A stretch of 25,543 bases of DNA from the IMG/VR virus record IMGVR_UViG_3300043775_000062, positions 1 through 25,543 of that record. The stretch is one strand, 5' to 3'. The notes beneath the pieces were generated by a model. The model saw only the letters and a list, made by a program, of their open reading frames with translations. It made no database searches and was not told the DNA's origin. Of this stretch, positions 1-20,475 are shown one piece after another. Position 1 is the stretch's first letter. Each line of letters begins with the position of its first letter. Source of the DNA: a virus. Made by a program: the position numbers and the translations under genes.

Positions 1-272
1 ACTGCCAGAACACTTATGATTAATTGCTCGATATTGTCGAGCGATGCTGGATTGCTGTTATAGGCAACCGCAACTGAAATAGTAAAATTGATCTTGGCTC
101 TGATATTGCTTTTGCTTATTGTTTCGAATTCTAAATATGGTGAATCAGGCACAACCACCACAGCTGGTGGAATTACTGTTTCAGGCACGAATGAATAAAC
201 ATTTCCTGCGACAACTGATAAAGCGGTTGCTAAAGGTGTCCGGATCTGTTGAAGAATTGTTTCATTTGGCAT
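1..272 (-). CDS. Tail terminator / head-tail joining protein, partial
   Basis: This is the N-terminal 90 residues of the same protein encoded complete at 14589-14978. The 3' end runs off the left edge. The start MPNETILQ matches the complete copy, and the ATG at 272 directly follows the TAA of the connector gene at 273-845. Nearly every residue agrees with the complete copy, with a few conservative changes. The small beta-rich protein and its position between the connector and the tail tube suggest the tail-terminator or completion role of HK97-like phages. That assignment is from gene order, not from a motif. Confidence 0.7.
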   Translation of the reverse strand, partial: MPNETILQQIRTPLATALSVVAGNVYSFVPETVIPPAVVVVPDSPYLEFETISKSNIRAKINFTISVAVAYNSNPASLDNIEQLIISVLA

Positions 273-845
273 TTAGAGAGCCATGCTTTCGGTGTCCATA
301 TATGAACCAAGCAAACCAACGCACTTATTGAAAAGTGATCGACCCATTCTAAATGGTGTTGGTGAAAAATCTACTCCTTCGATTTGTCCTCCGCCGGCAA
401 GTCTTGCTTGAAAGACTTCGACTGAAACTGTATAAACGGCTGACTGAACAGCTGCGTTTCCAACATAAGTTGATGCGCCAGAAAGGGTAGCAACTCCGGA
501 TGGGATGACATTAGCCTCGAGTATATCGGCGTTAGTGATCGATGCTGAAAAGGTATATTGTCCAAGATTGTCTGCCAGCACAACTCTTGTTCCGTTGTAA
601 GGTGATCCGCATCCTGTGATGACAACTGATTGCCCTTCGGTAAATTCATGAATTCCTAATGTGGTAAATGTAGCAACATTGTCTGACAATGAAGTTGCTT
701 GAATTGGTGCTTTGAATGTAACAAGCATTGGCAGAATAACAGTTTCTGCTGTGTCAATAATTTGGTTTAAATAAGTATCGTTATACAAGGCGGATGACAC
801 ACCAAGGACGGATCGCAACTCGGTGGCTGTAATTATGCTTGGCAT
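273..845 (-). CDS. Head-tail connector (adaptor) protein with beta insert
   Basis: 190 aa. The N-terminus (residues 1-45) is helical, with the pattern LRSVLGVSSALYNDTYLNQIIDTA typical of gp6-like adaptors that sit under the portal and seal the head. Residues about 55-100 form a compact beta segment (EFTEGQSVVITG, then SPYNGTRVV) that resembles the small Ig-like or decoration inserts of phage structural proteins. The C-terminal part (VYTVSVEVFQARLAGGG, then MGRSLFNKCVGLLGSY) returns to the adaptor pattern. It follows the capsid gene after a structured spacer and ends directly at the start of the tail-terminator gene. The second copy lies at 14979-15551. The connector role is strong from order and moderate from sequence. 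Confidence 0.75.
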   Translation of the reverse strand: MPSIITATELRSVLGVSSALYNDTYLNQIIDTAETVILPMLVTFKAPIQATSLSDNVATFTTLGIHEFTEGQSVVITGCGSPYNGTRVVLADNLGQYTFSASITNADILEANVIPSGVATLSGASTYVGNAAVQSAVYTVSVEVFQARLAGGGQIEGVDFSPTPFRMGRSLFNKCVGLLGSYMDTESMAL

Positions 846-857
846 GTCATCTCCTTA

Positions 858-899
858 CTCCCATTAATGGATGCCTAGGATCGGGAGCAACCCTAGGCA
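858..899 (-). promoter_or_regulatory. Pseudoknot-like RNA element between capsid and connector genes
   Basis: An 8-bp stem pairs 872-879 with 892-899 (TGCCTAGG with CCTAGGCA) around a 12-nt loop. The loop holds GGGAG at 883-887, which is complementary to CTCCC at 858-862, so an H-type pseudoknot is possible. In the second unit two stem pairs change in a compensatory way and the CTCCC/GGGAG pair is kept at the same 25-nt spacing. A perfect 10-bp palindrome, CCATTAATGG, sits at 861-870. No U-run follows the stem in the transcript, so an intrinsic terminator is unlikely. It lies 10 nt after the capsid stop and just before the connector ribosome site, so a role in mRNA stability or translation is plausible. 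Confidence 0.6.
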
Positions 900-1595
900 C
901 TCAGTTAAATTAGGCTACTGCTAGCTTGCGGAATGCGGTTGGGTAGCGATTAACTACGCAAACATATCCGTAGATACCAATTTCAATGCGTCCGTTTGCA
1001 ACGATATTGGCACGAAGTTCTACTGTGCCACTCTCGTGGAATCGCATTGCTTGTGATGGATAAACCAAAGCATGCTTGGCGTTAGCATCATCACCTGTGT
1101 AGTTAGGGCTTACAACTAAATCAAGTCCAGCAACTGTGCCGTTTGTTGATCCTTGTGTAATCACGCCGGCAGCATTTTGTGGTGCTGCTGCTGCAAATAG
1201 TGGACGGCTATCAGCTGTTGCTGCAAGTAATCCAGCAAAGTCAATTCCGTTTGTTCCACCTGAAGGAGCAACCAATAGTCGGTTAGGTGTAAAGCGCATT
1301 ACGCCATAGGAATCAGAAATTCCATCAACGATTGATGCGTAGATTGATGCGCCAGTTGATGCACTTGCATTCTGTGATGCAATTTGTGCAGCATATTGAT
1401 CGGTCTTTTGTGCATAAGATGCAGCTAACTCACGAACCAATAATTCTGCGAATGCTGGGTCTGAACGATCAAACAACTCAACATTTACAACATTTGCTCC
1501 AGCGAACTTGACGATTGTGTCCTCTTGGAATGTAACAGCGGTGTCAGTTGATGAAAACTCTGAACCTTCTGAAGTTACTGCAACAGTTGCTTGTG
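895..1595. repeat. Identity tract in capsid gene (first copy)
   Basis: By eye I find no mismatch between 895-1595 and 15604-16304, a 701-bp run. It covers the capsid-domain half of the protease-capsid gene and the bases just after its stop. Flanking sequence diverges quickly: silent changes begin at 1596 and become dense beyond about 1860. On the other side, the hairpin at 872-899 already differs. Neighbouring genes differ at many synonymous sites, so protein conservation alone does not explain the tract. Confidence 0.85.
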
Positions 1596-2445
1596 TGCCC
1601 AACTTAGGTGTGAAAATTTTCATTCCTGTTGCTGGTAGTGGTGCTCGCTCAATTGAATCGATAAATGGACGGCTTGAATCAATTATGCCGATGAGATCGC
1701 GCAAATAATTTGGTGGAACAGTTCCGGTGTTCTCAGTAACTGTTGCAATCTGTAATGCTGCAAGTAGGTCACGAGCATCATTGTCGCCACCTAGTGCTTT
1801 GATTTGTGCATTTAGATATTGTCCTGCTGTAACATTTGTATCAACGCGTGGCTTTGTGTATGCCATGTAGTTGGCTGTTACAACTGGAGCCTGTGTCGCT
1901 TCTACCGCTTCGGTTGCGATAGGAGCCTCAGAAGTAATTTCTGACACTATGTTCTCCTTTGTTGTGGTTTCCTCAGCGGTTGCTTCGGAATTCTCTGGTG
2001 TTTCACTAGCTGCAACCTCAGCTACTCTTGCGCTGTCAATTGCAGGATCTGTTACAAGTGAAACTTCCTGAAGTGTGCTTGATTTAATTCTTAGCACGCC
2101 TTCCTCATTTTTCCATTCATTAATTTTTACTCCCACGCTAAATCCATCACGAAGCCCAGTTGCAGCCTCCTCTAATGCATCATCTGCTGAAAATGTTTTA
2201 GCCAAACGAAATGTTGCCTCTAAGCCTGTATCTGTGGCAGTTATATCAACAAGTTTTCCAAGTGGCTTAGTTCTTTCATGCTCAAGCAATAATTTGACTG
2301 GCTTAGAGAAATCAATGCTGTCTTTTTCAAATACTGTTAATCCTGCGCTAGTTGAACCTTGCTCATCCCATGTAACTATCTTTCCTGAGATTGTGCGTTT
2401 GTTTGTATCGGCAGCTGTTATTTCTATTGGGAAATTAATCTTCAT
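910..2445 (-). CDS. Prohead protease fused to major capsid protein (HK97 fold)
   Basis: 511 aa. Residues 1-150 resemble the S78 prohead protease: LLLEH with H56, GLRDGFSVG with S103, and EVSLVTDPA near 127-135. Residues about 148-190 are a Glu/Thr/Ala-rich linker that may act as scaffold or delta domain and be cleaved. From about 195 the HK97-type capsid domain follows (ITENTGTVPPNYLRD, then SRPFIDSIERAPLPATGMKIFTP) and ends with a conserved beta tail. The ATG overlaps the portal stop by 4 nt (ATGA). No separate scaffold or protease gene exists in the unit, so one polypeptide supplies shell, protease and probably scaffold. Its capsid half is base-for-base identical to the second copy. Confidence 0.92.
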   Translation of the reverse strand: MKINFPIEITAADTNKRTISGKIVTWDEQGSTSAGLTVFEKDSIDFSKPVKLLLEHERTKPLGKLVDITATDTGLEATFRLAKTFSADDALEEAATGLRDGFSVGVKINEWKNEEGVLRIKSSTLQEVSLVTDPAIDSARVAEVAASETPENSEATAEETTTKENIVSEITSEAPIATEAVEATQAPVVTANYMAYTKPRVDTNVTAGQYLNAQIKALGGDNDARDLLAALQIATVTENTGTVPPNYLRDLIGIIDSSRPFIDSIERAPLPATGMKIFTPKLGTQATVAVTSEGSEFSSTDTAVTFQEDTIVKFAGANVVNVELFDRSDPAFAELLVRELAASYAQKTDQYAAQIASQNASASTGASIYASIVDGISDSYGVMRFTPNRLLVAPSGGTNGIDFAGLLAATADSRPLFAAAAPQNAAGVITQGSTNGTVAGLDLVVSPNYTGDDANAKHALVYPSQAMRFHESGTVELRANIVANGRIEIGIYGYVCVVNRYPTAFRKLAVA

Positions 2446-3545
2446 CGGATTAAGTCCTCCTCCTCTTGGATTTGCTCAATGCTCATTGCACCGATGCGAT
2501 TTAGGATTTCATAAACTTGAGCACGCTCTAATGCTGAACCTCTCAAGAAATCATCTATGTCAAATCTAGTTTCGATTCCGTTAGGGCAGAAATCCGCAGC
2601 GGACAGGCGTTGCTCAATGGCAGTTAAGATTGGTCGTAATGAAAAGTCAATAAGTGCTTTGCGTTCCATAACTGTTGTGCTATAAGTCATTGAGGTAACT
2701 TCTGCTGACACGAATGATGCAGGAATGCCAGCTGCGCGTGCAATTTCCAATGCAAGATATTGGCGTGCTTCATTTAATTGTAATTTAGCCGGATCAAAAC
2801 CTAATGCTTGTAATTCGACATCGGCATTTAAGAATGCGGTGGCTCTTGTTGATCTTGACACTCTCCATGATTCTAATAATTTTGTAATTCGCTCTGGAGT
2901 TAGATTTGTTCCATTTGATTTAAGAACCATTTGTGGCATTGGCTCTTTTGCATACATTTCAGCAGCTTGTTCCAATGCAGCAGCCGCTTTAATTGTGCGA
3001 CCTGCTCTGTTAAGTATTCCTTCATCTAATCCGTTAAATACAATTAAAGAACCAATTCCAAATGGTGGAACTCTTTTGCCATCTACTGTGTAGTATTCAA
3101 TTTCTGTGCTGTTGCCATTTAATGATGCAAATACTCTGTTTGGTGCAATTCTTGTCCATGCTCTAATTCTTGATGCATCAGTTGATGAGTAGGCATCCAT
3201 AATCATTCCATAACCAACTCCGTATAATAAAATATCTTCCGCCAACCATGCATAGATAGCAGAACCTGCAACTCTTGGATCTGGTTGCATAATTACACGA
3301 TTTGGTCTTATGTGTTCATTTGTAAAATGATTATATTGTTCAAGCGGTAAAGATCCGACTGTTGAGCAAATTATATTTCTTGCGCGTGCTCCGCTAGGAA
3401 TTGCCATGTACTGTTCACGAGTTGCAGTTGTTGTTCCAAATAAAATTCCGCCAACTAATTGTTGTGCGTTGTAAGGTGCAAGCGCAGCAGCAACATCTAC
3501 TGGTTGAATTGTCTGCTTTGTGGTAAAACGATCAAATAATCCCAT
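2442..3545 (-). CDS. Portal protein (HK97-type)
   Basis: 367 aa from the MGLFDRF start. An in-frame ATG 18 nt upstream (3563) would add MVYYVL. The body has typical phage portal sequence: a clip/stem region with PNRVIMQPDP and YAWLAEDILLYGVGYG, then FNGLDEGILNRAGRTIKAA, a helical crown after LEIARAAGIPASFV, and a C-terminus rich in acidic helices. It forms the dodecameric ring through which TerL pumps DNA. It lies between TerL and the protease-capsid gene, with a 4-nt ATGA overlap to the latter. No Shine-Dalgarno sequence precedes either start, unlike most neighbours. An extended -10-like TGGTATATT sits just upstream of the MGLF start, which would suit a leaderless message. Confidence 0.92.
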   Translation of the reverse strand: MGLFDRFTTKQTIQPVDVAAALAPYNAQQLVGGILFGTTTATREQYMAIPSGARARNIICSTVGSLPLEQYNHFTNEHIRPNRVIMQPDPRVAGSAIYAWLAEDILLYGVGYGMIMDAYSSTDASRIRAWTRIAPNRVFASLNGNSTEIEYYTVDGKRVPPFGIGSLIVFNGLDEGILNRAGRTIKAAAALEQAAEMYAKEPMPQMVLKSNGTNLTPERITKLLESWRVSRSTRATAFLNADVELQALGFDPAKLQLNEARQYLALEIARAAGIPASFVSAEVTSMTYSTTVMERKALIDFSLRPILTAIEQRLSAADFCPNGIETRFDIDDFLRGSALERAQVYEILNRIGAMSIEQIQEEEDLIR

Positions 3546-3553
3546 TAGCACAT

Positions 3554-3562
3554 AATATACCA
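3554..3562 (-). promoter_or_regulatory. Candidate extended -10 promoter before portal gene
   Basis: The minus strand reads TGG followed by TATATT, ending 8 nt before the MGLF ATG of the portal gene. The motif and the following bases are identical in the second unit (18269-18277), although the TerL-portal spacer just upstream differs. I see no good -35. With the usual spacing, transcription would start at or next to the ATG, giving a leaderless mRNA. These bases also encode the optional N-terminal MVYYVL, so protein constraint is an alternative explanation. Confidence 0.3.
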
Positions 3563-3572
3563 TATATGCTAA

Positions 3573-5048
3573 TTATCCGACTTGTATATCTATTTCCGTT
3601 TCAGGTTGTGTCGCAAAATAAGTAACTAGTGCTGAGGCAACTGATGCACAAACTGCAACCCTACTTGCTCGCCTTCCAATAATCCAAGATCCATCACCAA
3701 ATGGCAATTTAGCAGCTGATAATGTTTGTTGGGTCAATTCCTCTTGCCCCGAATGCTGAAGCCTGTGTGAGTTAATTGCACCGAGCCACCTGTCACACGA
3801 TTCTGCATAGATAGCCCCATCCATATCAGTAATTTGGATTCCGGCAGAATTTAGACGGCTAGCAACTGCCATGCTCGTTCTTTTGCTAAAAGCCACAGTT
3901 TGCGTGTTGTATTTTCTAACATAGGGCGCAATATCGTTTGCAACCGCTAAATCGTTTAAGCTGTAATCGTTTGACCAAGTATGAAGCAATTGAATATAAA
4001 ATCTTTCACCCGATAATCTTTGAGCAGCTACTAACGCACCAAATTTACGATCTGGACTTAAATCTAAACCAAGCCAAGTAGGTTGTTCAGGATCTAGGGG
4101 AATTGCATCTATCTGACACATTGCCCACTTTTGAGCATCAATTGCTGAGTTGATCGTATCTACCCATTGAGCCAATACTTCGGTTCTTACAATATCTGGA
4201 GGATCGTTAATAACTGCTTTTAAGTTATCTGGGTGAATTGTTATTCCTAATGATGGGTTGGCTTGAGCAAATGCACTCCAGTTCATCTCGCCTGACGGAA
4301 GCAAGATCGGAGCATCAGGTTCTGCACTCCACTCAAACCAACCTATCGGATCGTTGGTTGTAGCTGAAACCAACGCCCTCTCACGCAATTTGTTTAGGAT
4401 TACGGAATGCTGATCACCAGCTGAGGAATAAATCCATACCTGCGGATTTTTAGCAGCCATCATTGAGTAGCGCATTGATGACCAAGCATCCTCATCTTTG
4501 TATTCTCTCAACTCATCAAGATGGATTGTTTCAGGTTTGCTTAATCCTCTAGCTGCATTGTTTGCAGCCTTTACGACAAACCGCCTGTTACCAAATAATT
4601 CAATTTCTTCCGCGCCATGTTGCCACCGGATTTTCTTTACTTCCTTTTCCAACTTAGGATTAGTTTCAATTAAGCCAACAATCTGTCTAAATGTTTCAAG
4701 TGAAGTTGTAAGTCTGTGAGCTGATGCAAGCTGCAACCCTTCGCCCCACACAAACATTCCTGTCAAAATCCTCAGCATCATCAAAGTGGACTTACCTTGT
4801 TGGCGTGCCATAATTAAACCAAGTTCAGAATGAGCCCAGCGACCATCGGCTCGGACTTTGTGTCCATGAATGCACACGAATTTTTGCCATTCCATAAGAT
4901 TGATCTTAAGTTCGGCAGCAAGATCAATGATGTCTTGACCTTTAGACGGCAAATCACTAAGTTTTGAGTGAATACGCGGTGTTTGCACACCTCCTAATCC
5001 TGAATAAGCCTGATCTACGCTTATCTCGCCTGTTTCAAGGTTGATCAA
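3573..5048 (-). CDS. terL: Terminase large subunit
   Basis: 491 aa DNA-packaging motor. The ATPase domain has Walker A ARQQGKST at 81-88, Walker B TIHLDE at 174-179, and a coupling-like IYSSAGD near 206-212. The C-terminal nuclease domain carries GLDLSPDR with D329 and further acidic residues (TDMDGAIYAE at 407-416). Length and domain order are normal for HK97-like large terminases. Translation appears to begin at TTG (5048), which overlaps the HNH stop as TTGA; the second copy keeps the same TTG. No convincing small terminase was found upstream or elsewhere, so the HNH protein or an unrecognised small protein may take part in DNA recognition. Confidence 0.95.
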   Translation of the reverse strand: MINLETGEISVDQAYSGLGGVQTPRIHSKLSDLPSKGQDIIDLAAELKINLMEWQKFVCIHGHKVRADGRWAHSELGLIMARQQGKSTLMMLRILTGMFVWGEGLQLASAHRLTTSLETFRQIVGLIETNPKLEKEVKKIRWQHGAEEIELFGNRRFVVKAANNAARGLSKPETIHLDELREYKDEDAWSSMRYSMMAAKNPQVWIYSSAGDQHSVILNKLRERALVSATTNDPIGWFEWSAEPDAPILLPSGEMNWSAFAQANPSLGITIHPDNLKAVINDPPDIVRTEVLAQWVDTINSAIDAQKWAMCQIDAIPLDPEQPTWLGLDLSPDRKFGALVAAQRLSGERFYIQLLHTWSNDYSLNDLAVANDIAPYVRKYNTQTVAFSKRTSMAVASRLNSAGIQITDMDGAIYAESCDRWLGAINSHRLQHSGQEELTQQTLSAAKLPFGDGSWIIGRRASRVAVCASVASALVTYFATQPETEIDIQVG

Positions 5049-5356
5049 TCTGATCCAGTCTGATCGTGGCTGATCGAGGTGTTTTGTGGGTTAGAAAAGG
5101 AACGGGGGGTCGGTGGTGTCCTTGCGCCCACAAAAAAACGCCCACCCTTAGATAAATTACATCTTCGACAACTTGCAACTAAATTCTCATCACTATCATT
5201 TCCTCCAAGCCTGCGAGGAACTACATGATCAACAGTTGTAGCTTCTTGATTACAGTATTGGCAAATGAACTGATCGCGTCTTAGGATTCGACTGCGAATC
5301 GATCGCCAATGTCTGGTAGATCCAGTATCTCTTAAAGCTGATTTACTCAATACCAT
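5045..5356 (-). CDS. HNH endonuclease
   Basis: About 100 aa. Zinc ligands are CQYC (32-35) and CRRC (63-66), and the HNH core is DHVVPRRLGG at 43-52, with N58 and N67. HNH proteins next to TerL are common in cos-type phages and are needed for cos cleavage in several. The annotated ATG at 5356 overlaps the transglycosylase 3' end. The second copy's ATG aligns with a TTG 9 nt inside this frame (5347), so that TTG may be the true start. The last third (TPPTPRSFSNPQNTS) is a Pro/Ser tail encoded by a 51-bp tract that is invariant between copies. Confidence 0.88.
   Translation of the reverse strand: MVLSKSALRDTGSTRHWRSIRSRILRRDQFICQYCNQEATTVDHVVPRRLGGNDSDENLVASCRRCNLSKGGRFFVGARTPPTPRSFSNPQNTSISHDQTGSD
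5072..5122. other. 51-bp invariant block, candidate packaging (cos) site
   Basis: Bases 5072-5122 are identical to 19787-19837, with mismatches on both sides. The block contains a run of six G (six C in the coding sense) and lies in the 3' end of the HNH gene, directly before TerL. The flanking HNH sequence differs at many silent sites. Location and conservation would suit a terminase recognition or cleavage site. No overhang can be derived from the sequence alone. Confidence 0.35.
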
Positions 5357-5754
5357 CCCTTAATCTTATGATGAGCGAGCGCATTACATGGATTAGAGTA
5401 TCGCTTCTCAATGTATTTTAATTGCCAATCAATCTGTTTGTATCCATCAACTCTTGATAAGTATTTTGATCTACCTTGAGGAATACCATAATGACTACCA
5501 TTCTTGGCTTTTGGATTCCATCTTGATTCTTTGTAATTCAACTCATCTAAACAATAAAATTGATCTAAGTCGTTAAGTTGTATGAAAGCCCATTGTCTGT
5601 AATGATTTGTTTTGTCTAATGCAACGGAATCATTCTTTAGAAAGGCTGTTGTCATTACCAATGACAGAGATATCACCAAACCAAACCTTGCGATCTTTCT
5701 GCTTCGCAGATCGCCCTTTCGCTCTGAAAGCGAATTTGCGTTTAAGGGTAGCAT
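5347..5754 (-). CDS. Membrane-anchored lytic transglycosylase-like protein
   Basis: 135 aa. A basic N-terminus (residues 11-23, RKGDLRSRK) precedes one hydrophobic segment (about 24-39), so it is probably a signal anchor or signal peptide. The exported part has an SLT/lysozyme-like core: CLDELNYKESRWN with likely catalytic E76, YGIPQ at 89-93, then QIDWQLKYIEKRY and PCNALAHHKIKGWY. C68 and C123 could form a disulfide. The role would be cleavage of peptidoglycan glycan strands during lysis or entry. GGAG lies 5 nt before the ATG. The codons for residues 7-22 coincide with twin hairpins that are structurally conserved in the second copy. Confidence 0.75.
   Translation of the reverse strand: MLPLNANSLSERKGDLRSRKIARFGLVISLSLVMTTAFLKNDSVALDKTNHYRQWAFIQLNDLDQFYCLDELNYKESRWNPKAKNGSHYGIPQGRSKYLSRVDGYKQIDWQLKYIEKRYSNPCNALAHHKIKGWY
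5690..5734 (-). other. Twin covarying hairpins inside transglycosylase start region
   Basis: Hairpin 1 (5690-5714) has outer stem GCGAT/ATCGC, a 4-nt bulge CTTT, inner stem CTGC/GCAG and loop TTC, on the plus strand. After a 3-nt spacer, hairpin 2 (5718-5734) has stem TTCGCT/AGCGAA with a 5-nt loop. The second unit has the same geometry to the base at 20411-20455, with compensatory changes in four stem pairs. The encoded residues differ between copies, so structure appears more constrained than protein. Function unknown: translation control, a replication or packaging signal, or a protein-binding site. Confidence 0.65.
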
Positions 5755-14588: not shown

Positions 14589-14978
14589 TTAGACTGTGCG
14601 TGTGTAGTAGGTAGATACTCGAACATCTGCAATAAGCAAAGTCGATGCTCCGACTGTGGTAACTGTTGGTCTTTCGACCGAGCTGACAATATATCCTGCT
14701 GGAATTACTGCCAGAACGCTAATAACTAACTGCTCAATGTTATCAAGTGATGCAGGATTGCTGTTGTAAGCAACTGCAACTGATATTGTAAAATTAACTT
14801 TTGCTCTGATATTGCTTTTGTTTATTGTTTCAAATTCTAAATATGGGCTATCCGGAACAACTACTACAGCTGGAGGAATAACTGTTTCAGGCACAAACGC
14901 ATAAACATTTCCTGCAACACTAGATAAGGCAGTTGCTAAAGGTGTGCGGATCTGTTGAAGAATTGTTTCGTTAGGCAT
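14589..14978 (-). CDS. Tail terminator / head-tail joining protein
   Basis: 129 aa, small alpha/beta: MPNETILQQIRTPLATALSSVAGNVYAFVP, then PPAVVVVPDSPYLEFETINKSNIRAKVNFTISVAVAYNS, a helix (SLDNIEQLVISVL) and a final strand region (ADVRVSTYYTRTV). The pattern matches tail-terminator proteins that stop tube growth and dock to the connector. The ATG abuts the connector stop with no gap. Partial counterpart at 1-272. Assigned mainly by order and fold pattern. Confidence 0.72.
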   Translation of the reverse strand: MPNETILQQIRTPLATALSSVAGNVYAFVPETVIPPAVVVVPDSPYLEFETINKSNIRAKVNFTISVAVAYNSNPASLDNIEQLVISVLAVIPAGYIVSSVERPTVTTVGASTLLIADVRVSTYYTRTV

Positions 14979-15551
14979 TTATTGACACATGCTTTCGGTG
15001 TCTATGTAACTTCCCAATATGCCCACACATTTATTGAATAAACTTCTGCCCATTCTAAAAGGAGTTGCAGTAAAATCTACTCCTTCGATTTGTCCTCCGC
15101 CTGCAAGTCGGGCTTGAAAGACTTCGACTGAAACTGTATAGACGGCTGATTGAACAGCTGCGTTTCCAACATAAGTTGATGCGCCAGATAGGGCAGCAGT
15201 TCCGGATGGGATGACATTAGCTTCGAGTATATCGGCATTAGTGATCGATTGCGAAAAGGTATATTGTCCAAGATTATCTGCCAAGACTGCTCTTGTTCCG
15301 TTGTAAGGCGATCCGCATCCTGTGATAACAACTGATTGTCCTTCCGTAAATTCATGTATTCCCAATGTCGTAAATGTAGCAACATTGTCTGACAGCGATA
15401 CTTTCTCGATTGGTGCTTTGAATGTAACTAGCATTGGCAGAATAACTGTTTCTGCTGTGTCAATAATTTGATTTAGATAAGTGTCATCATAAAGAGCGGA
15501 ACTTACACCCAATACGGAACGCAATTGACTTGCGGTTATAATTGTAGGCAT
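14979..15551 (-). CDS. Head-tail connector protein, second copy
   Basis: 190 aa from MPTIITASQLRSVLG; GAGAGGAAC lies 4 nt upstream, which favours this ATG over the in-frame start 15 nt earlier. It is the homologue of 273-845 with the same length and the same internal beta insert. Differences cluster at the start, at residues 48-52 (PIEKVS here) and at the C-terminus (ESMCQ). It belongs with the tail module at 10880-14978, which is the complete structural set of the window. Confidence 0.78.
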   Translation of the reverse strand: MPTIITASQLRSVLGVSSALYDDTYLNQIIDTAETVILPMLVTFKAPIEKVSLSDNVATFTTLGIHEFTEGQSVVITGCGSPYNGTRAVLADNLGQYTFSQSITNADILEANVIPSGTAALSGASTYVGNAAVQSAVYTVSVEVFQARLAGGGQIEGVDFTATPFRMGRSLFNKCVGILGSYIDTESMCQ

Positions 15552-15566
15552 AAGTTCCTCTCTCAA

Positions 15567-15608
15567 CTCCCATTAATGGATGCCTGTGATCGGGAGCAAC
15601 CACAGGCA
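15567..15608 (-). promoter_or_regulatory. Pseudoknot-like RNA element, second copy
   Basis: The stem pairs 15581-15588 (TGCCTGTG) with 15601-15608 (CACAGGCA). Loop GGGAG at 15592-15596 can pair with CTCCC at 15567-15571. Compared with 858-899, stem pairs 6 and 7 change on both arms, while the loop, palindrome and spacing do not. Confidence 0.6.
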
Positions 15609-16304
15609 CTCAGTTAAATTAGGCTACTGCTAGCTTGCGGAATGCGGTTGGGTAGCGATTAACTACGCAAACATATCCGTAGATACCAATTTCAATGCGT
15701 CCGTTTGCAACGATATTGGCACGAAGTTCTACTGTGCCACTCTCGTGGAATCGCATTGCTTGTGATGGATAAACCAAAGCATGCTTGGCGTTAGCATCAT
15801 CACCTGTGTAGTTAGGGCTTACAACTAAATCAAGTCCAGCAACTGTGCCGTTTGTTGATCCTTGTGTAATCACGCCGGCAGCATTTTGTGGTGCTGCTGC
15901 TGCAAATAGTGGACGGCTATCAGCTGTTGCTGCAAGTAATCCAGCAAAGTCAATTCCGTTTGTTCCACCTGAAGGAGCAACCAATAGTCGGTTAGGTGTA
16001 AAGCGCATTACGCCATAGGAATCAGAAATTCCATCAACGATTGATGCGTAGATTGATGCGCCAGTTGATGCACTTGCATTCTGTGATGCAATTTGTGCAG
16101 CATATTGATCGGTCTTTTGTGCATAAGATGCAGCTAACTCACGAACCAATAATTCTGCGAATGCTGGGTCTGAACGATCAAACAACTCAACATTTACAAC
16201 ATTTGCTCCAGCGAACTTGACGATTGTGTCCTCTTGGAATGTAACAGCGGTGTCAGTTGATGAAAACTCTGAACCTTCTGAAGTTACTGCAACAGTTGCT
16301 TGTG
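15604..16304. repeat. Identity tract in capsid gene (second copy)
   Basis: This is the partner of the tract at 895-1595. The first difference on the right is a single C/T change at 16305 versus 1596. It marks either a recent homologous exchange between the two phage genomes or the overlap used to join them in assembly. Confidence 0.85.
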
Positions 16305-17154
16305 CGCCCAACTTAGGTGTGAAAATTTTCATTCCTGTTGCTGGTAGTGGTGCTCGCTCGATTGAATCGATAAATGGACGGCTTGAATCAATTATGCCGA
16401 TTAGATCACGCAAATAGTTTGGTGGAACAGTTCCAGTGTTTTCAGTAACTGTTGCAATCTGTAATGCTGCAAGTAGGTCACGAGCATCATTGTCGCCACC
16501 CAATGCTTTAATTTGTGCGTTTAGATATTGTCCTGCTGTAACATTTGTATCAACACGAGGCTTTGTATATGCCATGTATTGAGCAGTTACAACTGGAGCT
16601 TGTGATGCTTCTACCGCTTCGGTTGCGATAGGAGCTTCTGATGTTGTATCAGACACTTTGTCCTCCTGTGTTGTAGTTTCCTCAGCGGTTGCTTCGGAAT
16701 TCTCTGGTGTTTGACTTGCTGCGACCTCAGCCACTCTTGCGCTGTCGATTGCTGGATCAGTTACCAAACTGACCTCTTGCAAGGAACTTGACTGGATGCG
16801 TAACACGCCTTCCACATTTTTCCATTCATTAATCTTTACGCCCACGCTAAAACCATCACGAAGTCCGGTGGCTGCTTCCTCAAGAGCATCATCAGCTCTA
16901 AATGTTTTGGCTAAACGAAAAGTCGCTTCCAAGCCTGAATCTGTAGCAGTTATATCGATCAACTTGCCCAATGGCTTTGTTGTTTGGTGCTCAAGTAATA
17001 ATTTTACAGGCTTTGAAAAATCAATGCTGTCTTTTTCAAATACAGTTAATCCGGCACTTGTTGAACCTTGCTCATCCCAAGTTACGATCTTGCCTGAGAT
17101 AGTTCGCTTGTTTGTATCGGCAGCTGTTATTTCTATTGGGAAACTAATTTTCAT
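15619..17154 (-). CDS. Prohead protease-major capsid fusion, second copy
   Basis: 511 aa, the same length as the copy at 910-2445. Protease residues H56 (here LLLEHQTTK) and S103 (GLRDGFSVG) are kept. Changes lie almost only in the protease and the Glu/Thr linker (for example TTQEDKVSDTTSEAP); the capsid domain is the same except for one residue (LGAQATVA versus LGTQATVA). ATGA overlap with the portal gene is retained. A sharp step from diverged to identical DNA occurs within this gene. Confidence 0.92.
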   Translation of the reverse strand: MKISFPIEITAADTNKRTISGKIVTWDEQGSTSAGLTVFEKDSIDFSKPVKLLLEHQTTKPLGKLIDITATDSGLEATFRLAKTFRADDALEEAATGLRDGFSVGVKINEWKNVEGVLRIQSSSLQEVSLVTDPAIDSARVAEVAASQTPENSEATAEETTTQEDKVSDTTSEAPIATEAVEASQAPVVTAQYMAYTKPRVDTNVTAGQYLNAQIKALGGDNDARDLLAALQIATVTENTGTVPPNYLRDLIGIIDSSRPFIDSIERAPLPATGMKIFTPKLGAQATVAVTSEGSEFSSTDTAVTFQEDTIVKFAGANVVNVELFDRSDPAFAELLVRELAASYAQKTDQYAAQIASQNASASTGASIYASIVDGISDSYGVMRFTPNRLLVAPSGGTNGIDFAGLLAATADSRPLFAAAAPQNAAGVITQGSTNGTVAGLDLVVSPNYTGDDANAKHALVYPSQAMRFHESGTVELRANIVANGRIEIGIYGYVCVVNRYPTAFRKLAVA

Positions 17155-18260
17155 CGAATTAGATCCTCCTCCTCTTGGATTTGCTCAACGCTCATTGCGC
17201 CAATGCGGTTTAGGATTTCATAAACTTGCGCACGCTCTAAAGCAGATCCACGCAAGAAATCATCAATGTCAAATCGAGTTTCAATTCCGTTAGGGCAAAA
17301 ATCCGCAGCAGATAATCTTTGCTCAATGGCAGTTAGGATTGGACGAAGTGAAAAGTCAATCAACGCTTTTCTTTCGGCTAAAGTGTTGGTATAAGTCATG
17401 CTAGTTGTTTCAGCAGATACGAAACTTGCCGGAATGCCGCTCGCTCTCGAGATTTCTAGAGCAAGGTATTGACGGGCTTCATTGAGTTGAAGTTTGGCAG
17501 GATCGAAACCTAACGCTTGCAATTCAACATCAGCATTCAAGAATGCAGTTGCTCTTGTTGATCTTGACACTCTCCAAGATTCTAAAAGTTTTGTAATTCG
17601 CTCTGGAGTAAGGTTTGTGCCATTTGATTTCAATACCATTTGTGGCATTGGCTCTTTGGCATACATCTCAGCTGCTTTTTCTAACTCTGCTGCTGCTTTA
17701 ATTGTGCGACCTGCTCGATTTAAGATTCCCTCATCTAAACCATTAAATACAATTAAACTACCTAGACCAAATGGCGGAACTCGTTTTCCATCAACTGTGT
17801 AGTATTCGATTTCAGTTGAGTTTCCATTTAGTGAAGCAAAAACTCTATTTGGTGCAATTCTTGTCCATGCACGAATTCTTGAAGCATCGGTTGCAGCATA
17901 AGCATCCATAACCATTCCATACGCAACTCCGTATAAAAGCAAGTCCTCAGCGATCCACGCATATATTGCTGATCCTGCAACTCTTGGATCTGGTTGCATG
18001 ATTACTCTGTTTGGTCTTACATGCTCATTTGTAAAATGATTATATTGCTCAAGTGGTAATGAACCGATTGTTGAACAAATTATATTTCTTGCACGAGCAC
18101 CGGAAGGAATAGCCATGTATTGTTCACGAGTTGCGGTTGTAGTTCCAAATAGAATTCCGCCAACTAATTGCTGAGAGTTGTAAGGTGCTAATGCAGCTGC
18201 AACATCTACTGGATTTGCTTGCTGATTTGATCTTGCTGTAAATCGATCGAATAATCCCAT
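17151..18260 (-). CDS. Portal protein, second copy
   Basis: 369 aa from MGLFDRF (an upstream ATG at 18278 would add MVYYVL). It is the homologue of 2442-3545 with two extra residues near the N-terminus (TARSNQQANPVDVA). Other changes are scattered and conservative, with a local cluster in TTSMTYTNTLAERKALID, where the first copy has VTSMTYSTTVMERK. As in the first copy no ribosome site is seen and TGGTATATT lies upstream. Confidence 0.92.
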   Translation of the reverse strand: MGLFDRFTARSNQQANPVDVAAALAPYNSQQLVGGILFGTTTATREQYMAIPSGARARNIICSTIGSLPLEQYNHFTNEHVRPNRVIMQPDPRVAGSAIYAWIAEDLLLYGVAYGMVMDAYAATDASRIRAWTRIAPNRVFASLNGNSTEIEYYTVDGKRVPPFGLGSLIVFNGLDEGILNRAGRTIKAAAELEKAAEMYAKEPMPQMVLKSNGTNLTPERITKLLESWRVSRSTRATAFLNADVELQALGFDPAKLQLNEARQYLALEISRASGIPASFVSAETTSMTYTNTLAERKALIDFSLRPILTAIEQRLSAADFCPNGIETRFDIDDFLRGSALERAQVYEILNRIGAMSVEQIQEEEDLIR

Positions 18261-18268
18261 TAGCACAT

Positions 18269-18277
18269 AATATACCA
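18269..18277 (-). promoter_or_regulatory. Candidate extended -10 promoter, second copy
   Basis: TGG plus TATATT on the minus strand, at the same distance from the portal ATG as at 3554-3562. Bases upstream of the motif differ between copies while the motif and the six codons it covers do not. Confidence 0.3.
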
Positions 18278-18287
18278 TAAAGACAAA

Positions 18288-19763
18288 TTATCCGACTTGA
18301 ATATCAATCTCCGTTTCAGGTTGTGTCGCAAAATATGTTGCGAGACTAGAAGCCACCGCTGCACAGACGGCGACTCGACTAGCCCTTCTTCCAATAACCC
18401 AACTGCCATCCCCAAATGGCAACTTGGCTGCTGAAAGTGTTTGTTGGGTCAATTCCTCCTGACCCCCATGCTGTAATCGATGGGAATTTATTGCGCCCAG
18501 CCACCGATCACAACTTTCCGCATAGATTGCGCCATCCATGTCGGTTATGGGTATTCCAGCCGGAACTAGCCGACTTGCAACAGCTTGTGCAGTCCGTTTG
18601 GAATACGCCACAGTTTGAGTGTTATATCGTCTTACATAAGGAGCAATATCATTTGCAACCGCTAAATCATTTAGGCTGTAATCATTTGACCAAGTGTGAA
18701 GCAAAACTAAATTAAATCTTTCTCCTGGTAATTTCTGAGTTGCAACTAATGCGCCAAATTTTCTATCTGGAGATAAATCAAGTCCAAGCCAAGTTGGTGC
18801 TTCCGGATCTAAAGGTATTGGATCGGTCTGACACAATCCCCACTTTTGTGCATCAATTGCTGAATTGATTGTATCTACCCATTGCGCCAAAACCTCTGTG
18901 CGCACAATATCTGGAGGATCGTTAATAACTGCTTTTAAGTTGTCTGGATGAATTGTAATTCCTAATGACGGATTGGCTTGAGCGAATGCATCCCAATTTA
19001 TCTCACCTGACGGAAGCAAGATAGGTGCATCGGGTTCAGCACTCCACTCAAACCAACCAATCGGATCGTTAGTCGTGGCTGACGCTAACGCCCTCTCACG
19101 CAATTTGTTTAGGATTACGGAATGCTGATCTCCGGCTGATGAATAGATCCATACCTGCGGATTCTTAGCAGCCATCATGGAGTAACGCATTGATGACCAA
19201 GCATCCTCATCCTTATACTCACGCAACTCATCAAGATGAATCGTTTCGGGTTTGCTTAAACCTCTAGCTGCATTGTTGGCAGCCTTTACAACAAATCGCC
19301 TATTGCCAAACAATTCAATTTCCTCAGCACCGTGTTGCCATCGGATTTTCTTTACTTCTTTTTCAAGTCTTGGATTTGTTTCAATCAAGCCAACGATCTG
19401 TCTAAAAGTTTCAAGTGAGGTTGTAAGTCTATGAGCTGAGGCAAGTTGCAAACCTTCACCCCATACAAACATGCCAGTCAAGATCCGGAGCATCATCAGC
19501 GTGGACTTGCCTTGCTGCCTTGCCATGATGAGCCCTAGTTCAGAATGAGCCCACCTGCCATCCTCACGCACCTTGTGTCCATGAATGCAGACATACCGCT
19601 GCCATTCCATAAGGTTGATGCCCAGTTCGGTGGCAAGGTCGATCATGTCTTGACCTTTTGAAGGTAAATCAGTCAGTTTTGAATGAATTCGTGGAGTTTG
19701 CACACCTCCTAAACCTGAATAGGTCGGATCACTTAAGATCTCTCCTGTTTGTAAATTAATCAA
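18288..19763 (-). CDS. terL: Terminase large subunit, second copy
   Basis: 491 aa with all motor and nuclease motifs of the first copy: ARQQGKST, TIHLDE, GLDLSPDRK and TDMDGAIYAE. The ATPase domain is almost invariant; most substitutions fall in the nuclease half (for example ATQKLPGERFNLVLLHTW) and in the first 20 residues. TTG start overlapping the HNH stop as TTGA, as in the first copy. Two intact, functional-looking TerL genes in one window argue that neither unit is decaying. Confidence 0.95.
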   Translation of the reverse strand: MINLQTGEILSDPTYSGLGGVQTPRIHSKLTDLPSKGQDMIDLATELGINLMEWQRYVCIHGHKVREDGRWAHSELGLIMARQQGKSTLMMLRILTGMFVWGEGLQLASAHRLTTSLETFRQIVGLIETNPRLEKEVKKIRWQHGAEEIELFGNRRFVVKAANNAARGLSKPETIHLDELREYKDEDAWSSMRYSMMAAKNPQVWIYSSAGDQHSVILNKLRERALASATTNDPIGWFEWSAEPDAPILLPSGEINWDAFAQANPSLGITIHPDNLKAVINDPPDIVRTEVLAQWVDTINSAIDAQKWGLCQTDPIPLDPEAPTWLGLDLSPDRKFGALVATQKLPGERFNLVLLHTWSNDYSLNDLAVANDIAPYVRRYNTQTVAYSKRTAQAVASRLVPAGIPITDMDGAIYAESCDRWLGAINSHRLQHGGQEELTQQTLSAAKLPFGDGSWVIGRRASRVAVCAAVASSLATYFATQPETEIDIQVG

Positions 19764-20065
19764 AGCGATTCAGTCTGAGCGTGGGCGATCGAGGTGTTTT
19801 GTGGGTTAGAAAAGGAACGGGGGGTCGGTGGTGTCCTATCGCTCACAAAAAACCGCCCACCCTTAGATAAATTACATCTGGAACATGAAGCCACAAGGTT
19901 GTCATCACTATCAAGACCACCTAATCTCCTAGGTATCACATGATCCACAGTAGTGGCCTCTTGATTGCAATATTGGCAGATGAACCCATCACGCCTTAAC
20001 ACCCTACTGCGAATAGATCTCCAATGCCTAGTCGATCCAGTAGATCGTAGAGCTGACTTGCTCAT
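19760..20065 (-). CDS. HNH endonuclease, second copy
   Basis: 101 aa from MSKSALRS; its ATG overlaps the transglycosylase TAA (TAATG), with AAGGG 9 nt upstream. An earlier in-frame ATG at 20074 lies inside the previous gene. CQYC, DHVIPRRLGG and CSRCNLSKGG are intact. The C-terminal TPPTPRSFSNPQNTS tail is encoded by the invariant 51-bp block. Confidence 0.88.
   Translation of the reverse strand: MSKSALRSTGSTRHWRSIRSRVLRRDGFICQYCNQEATTVDHVIPRRLGGLDSDDNLVASCSRCNLSKGGRFFVSDRTPPTPRSFSNPQNTSIAHAQTESL
19787..19837. other. 51-bp invariant block, second copy
   Basis: Identical to 5072-5122 and bounded by mismatches at 19786 and 19838. It contains the six-G run. See the first copy for the packaging-site argument. 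Confidence 0.35.
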
Positions 20066-20475
20066 TAATACCAACCCTTAATTTTATGATGTTGTAATGC
20101 TTTACAAGGTTCATCATACCTGTGTTTAATATAAGCCAATCCTCTATCAATCTGTTTAATAGGATTCTTTTCTTTAAGCCCTAATATCTGTGGAATACCA
20201 AATGCACTTGATTTAGGATTCTTAGCCTTGTAGTTCCATCTACTCTCTTTATGCCATAACTCATCTAAACAATAGAATTCAGTAAATGAATGATTAAGCT
20301 CTATAAAAGCATATTGTTTTAATGTATTAATTGACCAAGATTTAGATTCAGCTCTTTCAAGGCTGTTAATTTGTGCTACAAATACAGCGATCCCAACTAG
20401 CGTGCACCTTGCGAGCCATCCCCTACGGGGCTCGCCTTTTCGCCTTGAGGGCGAATGCGAACTAGAGCGTATCAT
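20065..20475 (-). CDS. Membrane-anchored lytic transglycosylase-like protein, second copy
   Basis: 136 aa. A basic start (RRKGEPRRGWLAR) and one hydrophobic segment (about 24-36, CTLVGIAVFVAQI) precede the SLT-like core: CLDELWHKESRWN with E77, FGIPQ, then QIDRGLAYIKHRYDEPCKALQHHKIKGWY. The N-terminal half is strongly diverged from the copy at 5347-5754 while the catalytic half and C-terminus are conserved. The codons for residues 7-22 form the twin hairpins, in the same position as in the first copy. Confidence 0.75.
   Translation of the reverse strand: MIRSSSHSPSRRKGEPRRGWLARCTLVGIAVFVAQINSLERAESKSWSINTLKQYAFIELNHSFTEFYCLDELWHKESRWNYKAKNPKSSAFGIPQILGLKEKNPIKQIDRGLAYIKHRYDEPCKALQHHKIKGWY
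20411..20455 (-). other. Twin covarying hairpins, second copy
   Basis: Hairpin 1 (20411-20435): outer stem GCGAG/CTCGC, bulge CCAT, inner stem CCCC/GGGG, loop TAC. Three-nt spacer. Hairpin 2 (20439-20455): TTCGCC/GGCGAA with 5-nt loop. Every stem, bulge, loop and spacer length equals that at 5690-5734. Confidence 0.65.

Follow-up and report, generated by a model that had tools for sequence, protein, structure and literature searches.

A 42-nt element that follows the capsid gene of a small phage, at positions 858–899 on the minus (mRNA) strand of the window (the whole 25,543-nt stretch of DNA analysed here), is very probably an mRNA control element. Its stem is supported very strongly by comparison among related phages, and the loop of that stem likely pairs with an invariant GGGAG further downstream, giving a proposed H-type pseudoknot in front of a putative head-to-tail adaptor (connector) gene. 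What stands at this capsid/adaptor junction is a structured RNA that comparison across hundreds of phage contigs strongly supports. The capsid protein is needed in hundreds of copies and the next protein in about a dozen, and the junction element offers a concrete handle on the post-transcriptional side of head-protein stoichiometry in dsDNA phages. A sequence-only reading had described a covarying, pseudoknot-like element here that could stabilise the capsid mRNA or damp connector translation, an interpretation that is partly supported by the present analysis.

The capsid–adaptor junction and its genomic setting

Two related small phage genomes lie head to tail in the record, about 14.7 kb apart, and are 76–87% identical in aligned pieces (85.6% for positions 1–5373 against 14707–20091); the arrangement may be genuinely tandem or an assembly chimera of two strains. 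The genes around the element all lie on the minus strand, and the gene order runs terminase, portal, capsid-protease fusion, 190-aa protein, tail-terminator-like protein and others. The fusion of major capsid and prohead protease (910..2445, stop codon TAA at 912-910) was recognised by matches to Pfam Peptidase_S78 (1.2e-9) and to PHROG 2263, major head protein (1.4e-65), and by a gene order as in cultured actinophages of about 15 kb. Matching order is found in cultured phages of Arthrobacter, Curtobacterium, Microbacterium and Exiguobacterium with genomes of about 15–18 kb, whose capsids are about 24–40% identical and in which the gene at the place of the 190-aa gene is annotated as head-to-tail adaptor (or connector). 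The family is one of ~15-kb siphophages whose nearest cultured relatives mostly infect actinobacteria, and it is known here from uncultured contigs.

The 190-aa gene itself (273..845, minus strand, start codon ATG at 845-843) gave no match in Pfam, PHROGs or PDB sequence searches, and profile comparison with the adaptors of two cultured phages showed no similarity. Its AlphaFold model (mean pLDDT 79) returned weak Foldseek matches (TM ~0.34) to Milano neck and PhiM1 adaptor chains, among many unrelated ones. Because sequence and profile matches are absent while gene order and weak fold matches point to a connector, we call the product a putative adaptor; the identity proposed from the sequence is supported by gene order and weakly by fold, and not by sequence homology. 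The second putative adaptor gene lies at 14979..15551 on the minus strand. Its conserved start is the ATG at 15551-15549, and the list of open reading frames begins it at a TTG (15566).

Adjacent structural genes abut or overlap, and the capsid–adaptor junction spans 64 nt. Read in mRNA order, with all parts on the minus strand, the capsid stop UAA is followed by a 10-nt spacer UUUAACUGAG (900..909), the 5′ arm of stem S1 UGCCUAGGGU (890..899), the apical loop UGCUCCCG (882..889, UG-CUCCC-G), the 3′ arm of S1 AUCCUAGGCA (872..881), a loop L3 UCCAUUAAU (863..871), GGGAG (858..862), a single U, the Shine-Dalgarno sequence AAGGAG of the downstream gene (851..856, assigned by sequence), AUGAC and the start codon AUG. 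The loop motif CUCCC (887-883) and GGGAG would be the 5′ and 3′ strands of a putative pseudoknot helix, S2. The second copy of the whole element (15567..15608, minus strand), in the second genome of the record, has the S1 arms UGCCUGUGGU/AUCACAGGCA and a Shine-Dalgarno sequence of the AGAGAGG type. Its stem differs solely by two compensated pairs, as first noticed from the sequence, and its loop and GGGAG are identical.

The earlier reading had given the stem 8 bp and had put GGGAG in the loop and CTCCC at a distance. The complementarity and invariance of the two motifs hold, but the RNA is read from the minus strand, so that CUCCC is the loop and GGGAG lies downstream; the stem reaches 10 bp around an 8-nt loop if the inner G.U and U-A pairs are included. 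A covariance model spans exactly 858–899, the place proposed for the element, and gives the two copies minus-strand scores of 70 and 69 bits, versus 9 bits on the plus strand; because both copies were used to train it, what informs here is the contrast between strands. The fold of the single sequence has a z of −3.4, beyond what chance would give.

Comparative evidence for the stem and the proposed pseudoknot

Loci for comparison came from a capsid search (the best 80 of 564 relatives were used), from a search with a second capsid type, which shares about 45% identity with the first (80 of 118 relatives), and from adaptor searches that gave two further sets of 80 relatives; the loci from capsid and adaptor searches were picked by protein and not by motif. 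There are 386 locus entries, 256 of them protein-chosen and with 130 distinct flanking contexts in that set, and some contigs were entered more than once. The canonical element is found in every locus that has an adaptor more than 45% identical to the query and its upstream region present, which covers the 386 entries. All 51 distinct elements keep 10/10 pairs in S1, the loop UGCUCCC and a GGGAG 8–10 nt after the stem. The distance from capsid stop to stem ranges from 7 to 18 nt (10 nt in 107 of 196 distinct pairs) and therefore sets no fixed reading frame, and, with one aberrant exception, 12–20 nt separate the end of GGGAG from the start codon. The Shine-Dalgarno sequence of the relatives comes in two types, AAGGAG and AGAGAGG, around an unchanging GGGAG, so that GGGAG is not simply the Shine-Dalgarno sequence. 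Two contigs among the relatives, L142 and L176, also carry an additional partial match, UUGCUCCCGAUCUCAGGC, elsewhere and without a paired stem.

Searches of Rfam 15 at gathering and permissive thresholds returned nothing credible, an exact-pattern search found the element absent from 84,980 prokaryote genomes, and neither BLASTn of the element against cultured phages nor the covariance model, run on nine cultured relatives and on six loci of the sister group, gave a match. A literature search found no published description of the element.

Support for S1 comes from covariation and is very strong. Across 44 distinct elements 440 of 440 cells are paired, six of the ten pairs vary, five change on both sides, and 50 cells are changed on both sides; the inner G.U and U-A pairs, which belong to the 10-bp core around the loop UGCUCCCR, also vary with pairing kept. 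The covariation test on related phages that had been suggested as a check gave a score of 0.403 for these 44 elements versus 0.132 ± 0.015 after shuffling (0 of 500 shuffles match it), and in slid controls 28–46% of cells are paired. When the 3′ arms of the 22 distinct stems are shuffled, on average 4.9 stay perfect. Pair 7 occurs in five types (UA, AU, GC, CG, GU), and the four outermost pairs, UGCC/GGCA, are constant. The covariation is not accounted for by common descent, since positions 6-7 change state at least 59 times on the adaptor tree and 61 times on the capsid tree with pairing always kept. The tolerance of G.U pairs and the strand contrast of the covariance model point to RNA rather than DNA, and the first stem covaries as that of an H-type pseudoknot should.

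For S2 the argument is one of invariance. CUCCC and GGGAG are exactly complementary, both are invariant, and the complement is kept in all relatives at an L3 length of 8–10 nt; as neither side varies, the pairing from loop to outside is likely on complementarity and invariance, covariation being unable to prove it. Loop variants with the third C changed were searched for and gave unrelated matches only, so covariation in S2 was not to be found. The motifs nevertheless stay constant while the flanks and the sequence between them diverge (L3 reads UCCAUUAAU, UCCAUUAA, GUUGCUCUA, GCUAUAAAU, GUCGAAUAU, UCUAAGAGU and more), which makes an H-type pseudoknot likely, with S1 of 10 bp, L1 of UG, S2 of 5 bp (CUCCC/GGGAG), L2 of one purine and L3 of 8–10 nt. 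A 10-bp palindrome, CCATTAATGG, had been counted as part of the element; it does lie in L3, but relatives read CCATTAAGGG, GTTGCTCTAGGG, GCTATAAATGGG and others there, and it was rejected for lack of conservation. A 5-mer complementary to the loop at 7–11 nt has a 4.5% chance in one shuffled sequence, so the weight rests on conservation: loss of the CTCCC/GGGAG complementarity, named beforehand as the result that would speak against the pairing, was sought in relatives, and none with a related adaptor gene lacks the GGGAG complement. The calculated energies are −14.7 kcal/mol for S1 with an open loop, −17.8 kcal/mol with two more inner pairs and −7.0 kcal/mol for the S2 duplex. Opening the two inner loop pairs costs 3.1 kcal/mol against the −7.0 kcal/mol gained, and the knot, with this modest advantage, could be switchable.

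A sister group with a type-2 capsid about 66–73% identical and an adaptor about 35% identical has a different conserved hairpin at the same place between capsid and adaptor (contigs L289–L332, e.g. L293 upstream of 4143). Its stems, GUGUGGGGGR/YCCCCCACAC or GUAGGGGYGG/CCRCCCCUAC, are GC-rich, 10 bp long and covarying, and its 12-nt loop, UGC[GU][AG]CCCUGUG, is near-invariant. In this group we found neither CUCCC in the loop nor GGGAG downstream, nor any other downstream complement; both halves of S2 are present together and absent together, which counts as one event in favour of S2. The cultured Arthrobacter phages Atraxa, MooKitty and Adaia have long, strong hairpins in the capsid–adaptor gap (L414:3091-3205, L417:3016-3095 and L418:3091-3166, respectively), which resemble our element in place, strength and lack of a U-tract but are unrelated in sequence and without CUCCC/GGGAG. 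MooKitty and Adaia belong to one genus and have no hairpin sequence in common. Six other cultured relatives have no capsid–adaptor gap at all. The hairpins of the three cultured phages make a laboratory test of the junction feasible although the present phages are uncultured.

Competing explanations for the junction

Capsids found with this knot share as little as 39% identity with one another, while its adaptors never fall below 67%, for which reason we first favoured the idea that the element travels with the adaptor. This idea was weakened because the L3 class tracks the capsid tree better, with 14 changes versus 26 on the adaptor tree; for the Shine-Dalgarno class the counts are 33 on the capsid tree and 25 on the adaptor tree, although trees of the adaptor are short and noisy. 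As the L3 class follows the capsid and the Shine-Dalgarno class the adaptor, a recombination boundary likely lies at the 3′ edge of the element (GGGAG/Shine-Dalgarno). The tree tests single out neither gene as the one to which the element belongs, and it is not clearly inherited with the adaptor. Such a boundary might suggest a DNA-level element, that is a recombination joint, a repressor site or a packaging site, which we regard as very improbable given that G.U pairs are tolerated, the loop is asymmetric, the score is strand-specific and the place is fixed between two genes. Still harder to credit is a recoding signal in which the pseudoknot stimulates readthrough of the capsid stop or frameshifting. 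The dimensions (S1 10 bp, L1 2 nt, S2 5 bp, L3 8–10 nt) do resemble those of pseudoknots that stimulate frameshifting or readthrough, and a stop codon lies 10 nt upstream. Against this, the spacing is not fixed and its 7–18 nt cover all frames, many relatives have TAATAA or more in-frame stops, and neither a slippery heptamer nor a conserved extension of the frame is found. We give no more credence to a conserved upstream mini-ORF starting from an RTG that overlaps the stem (RTG CCN NNN GNT GCT CCC ...). A purine (A or G) always precedes UGCC, so that ATG or GTG is present throughout, but the wobble bases of GCT and CCC are constant although synonymous changes would be free, the neighbouring codons vary while keeping S1 paired, the stop position is not conserved, and inspection of the sequence revealed no upstream Shine-Dalgarno; the mini-ORF was rejected on these grounds. 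Each of these three readings is weak, where it is not contradicted.

A partial transcription terminator would have a precedent in T-phi of phage T7, whose only terminator for the phage RNA polymerase lies immediately after the capsid gene 10 (PMC5592923), and strong hairpins recur in relatives and in the sister group. However, no U-tract follows the stem here, as was noted from the outset, or in any relative, the structure was not called terminator-like, and an invariant loop with an invariant GGGAG would not be needed, so termination appears improbable. A processing or 3′-end element, in which the knot acts as a barrier to 3′ exonucleases or as a mark for cleavage and lets the capsid mRNA outlive the adaptor mRNA, is unlikely, though worth keeping in view: it would sit directly after the most expressed gene, the L3 class follows the capsid tree, and the unrelated hairpins of Atraxa, MooKitty and Adaia are what a purely structural barrier would allow. 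Yet such a barrier needs no invariant loop and no invariant complement in the ribosome-binding region of the next gene. That region is where an enhancer of the repZ type would act, with a pseudoknot beside the Shine-Dalgarno sequence that is needed for adaptor translation and is gated by ribosomes terminating at the capsid stop. The layout is similar to that of repZ in plasmid ColIb-P9, where a leader ORF reportedly stops just before a hairpin whose loop is said to pair with a site just 5′ of the Shine-Dalgarno; here GGGAG lies next to the Shine-Dalgarno region, with AAGGAG or AGAGAGG after it, and would place the putative loop pairing likewise. We hold this to be quite unlikely nonetheless, as no competing structure was found for a terminating ribosome to melt and the distance from stop to stem is variable.

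Proposed role and known systems

In our judgement there is about an even chance that the element controls translation of the adaptor, a low-copy product, relative to that of the very abundant capsid, more likely by repression. The element would act in cis as an mRNA pseudoknot that begins 7–18 nt after the capsid stop and ends 12–20 nt before the adaptor start. With S2 formed, the knot would occupy the upstream part of the adaptor ribosome-binding region, and a 30S subunit could load once an incoming ribosome or the loss of a bound factor had opened it. The position of GGGAG falls inside a 30S footprint, which fits a role in connector translation. In tested gene pairs, gaps of about 20 nt already almost abolish termination-reinitiation coupling (PMC10666635). 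Since the 64-nt gap alone should do so, a plain insulator would need no invariant bases. Some bases are fixed beyond what pairing demands (the outer UGCC/GGCA, the loop UG and purine 18), which suggests that a specific partner binds the RNA, perhaps a head protein of the phage itself. More tentatively, the element may be a pseudoknot operator of a new phage structured-RNA class, universal in one large lineage of uncultured small phages, which senses a head protein or the ribosome traffic on the capsid gene and sets the capsid-to-adaptor ratio.

Among known systems, recoding pseudoknots of the IBV/MuLV type have the same stem and loop lengths, but here there is no slippery site and no conserved frame or extension downstream. 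Like T7 T-phi, the element is an RNA hairpin directly after a major capsid gene; unlike it, it has no U-tract, and it has a conserved loop and a pseudoknot complement. The ColIb-P9 repZ pseudoknot and the T4 gene 32 operator are offered as systems that the element may work like, with membership in either not claimed. For repZ to be translated, a pseudoknot has to form upstream of its ribosome-binding site (PMC8383071). The ColIb-P9 (IncI-alpha) arrangement would share with ours a pseudoknot just 5′ of that site; it differs in that no antisense RNA or small leader ORF was found here, and the pairs here are CUCCC/GGGAG. An upstream ORF that ends just before the pseudoknot is reportedly common to both. 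In T4, 67 nt separate the gene 32 pseudoknot from the start codon, and gp32 coats an A+U-rich run (PMC3014915), whereas our knot reaches to within 12–20 nt of the start and lies between two structural genes, with a purine-rich Shine-Dalgarno sequence in place of an A+U-rich run or UUAA repeats. What the element would share with the autogenous translational operator in the T4/T2 gene 32 leader is an H-type pseudoknot upstream of a phage ribosome-binding site, where it may regulate a gene with a stoichiometry-sensitive product.
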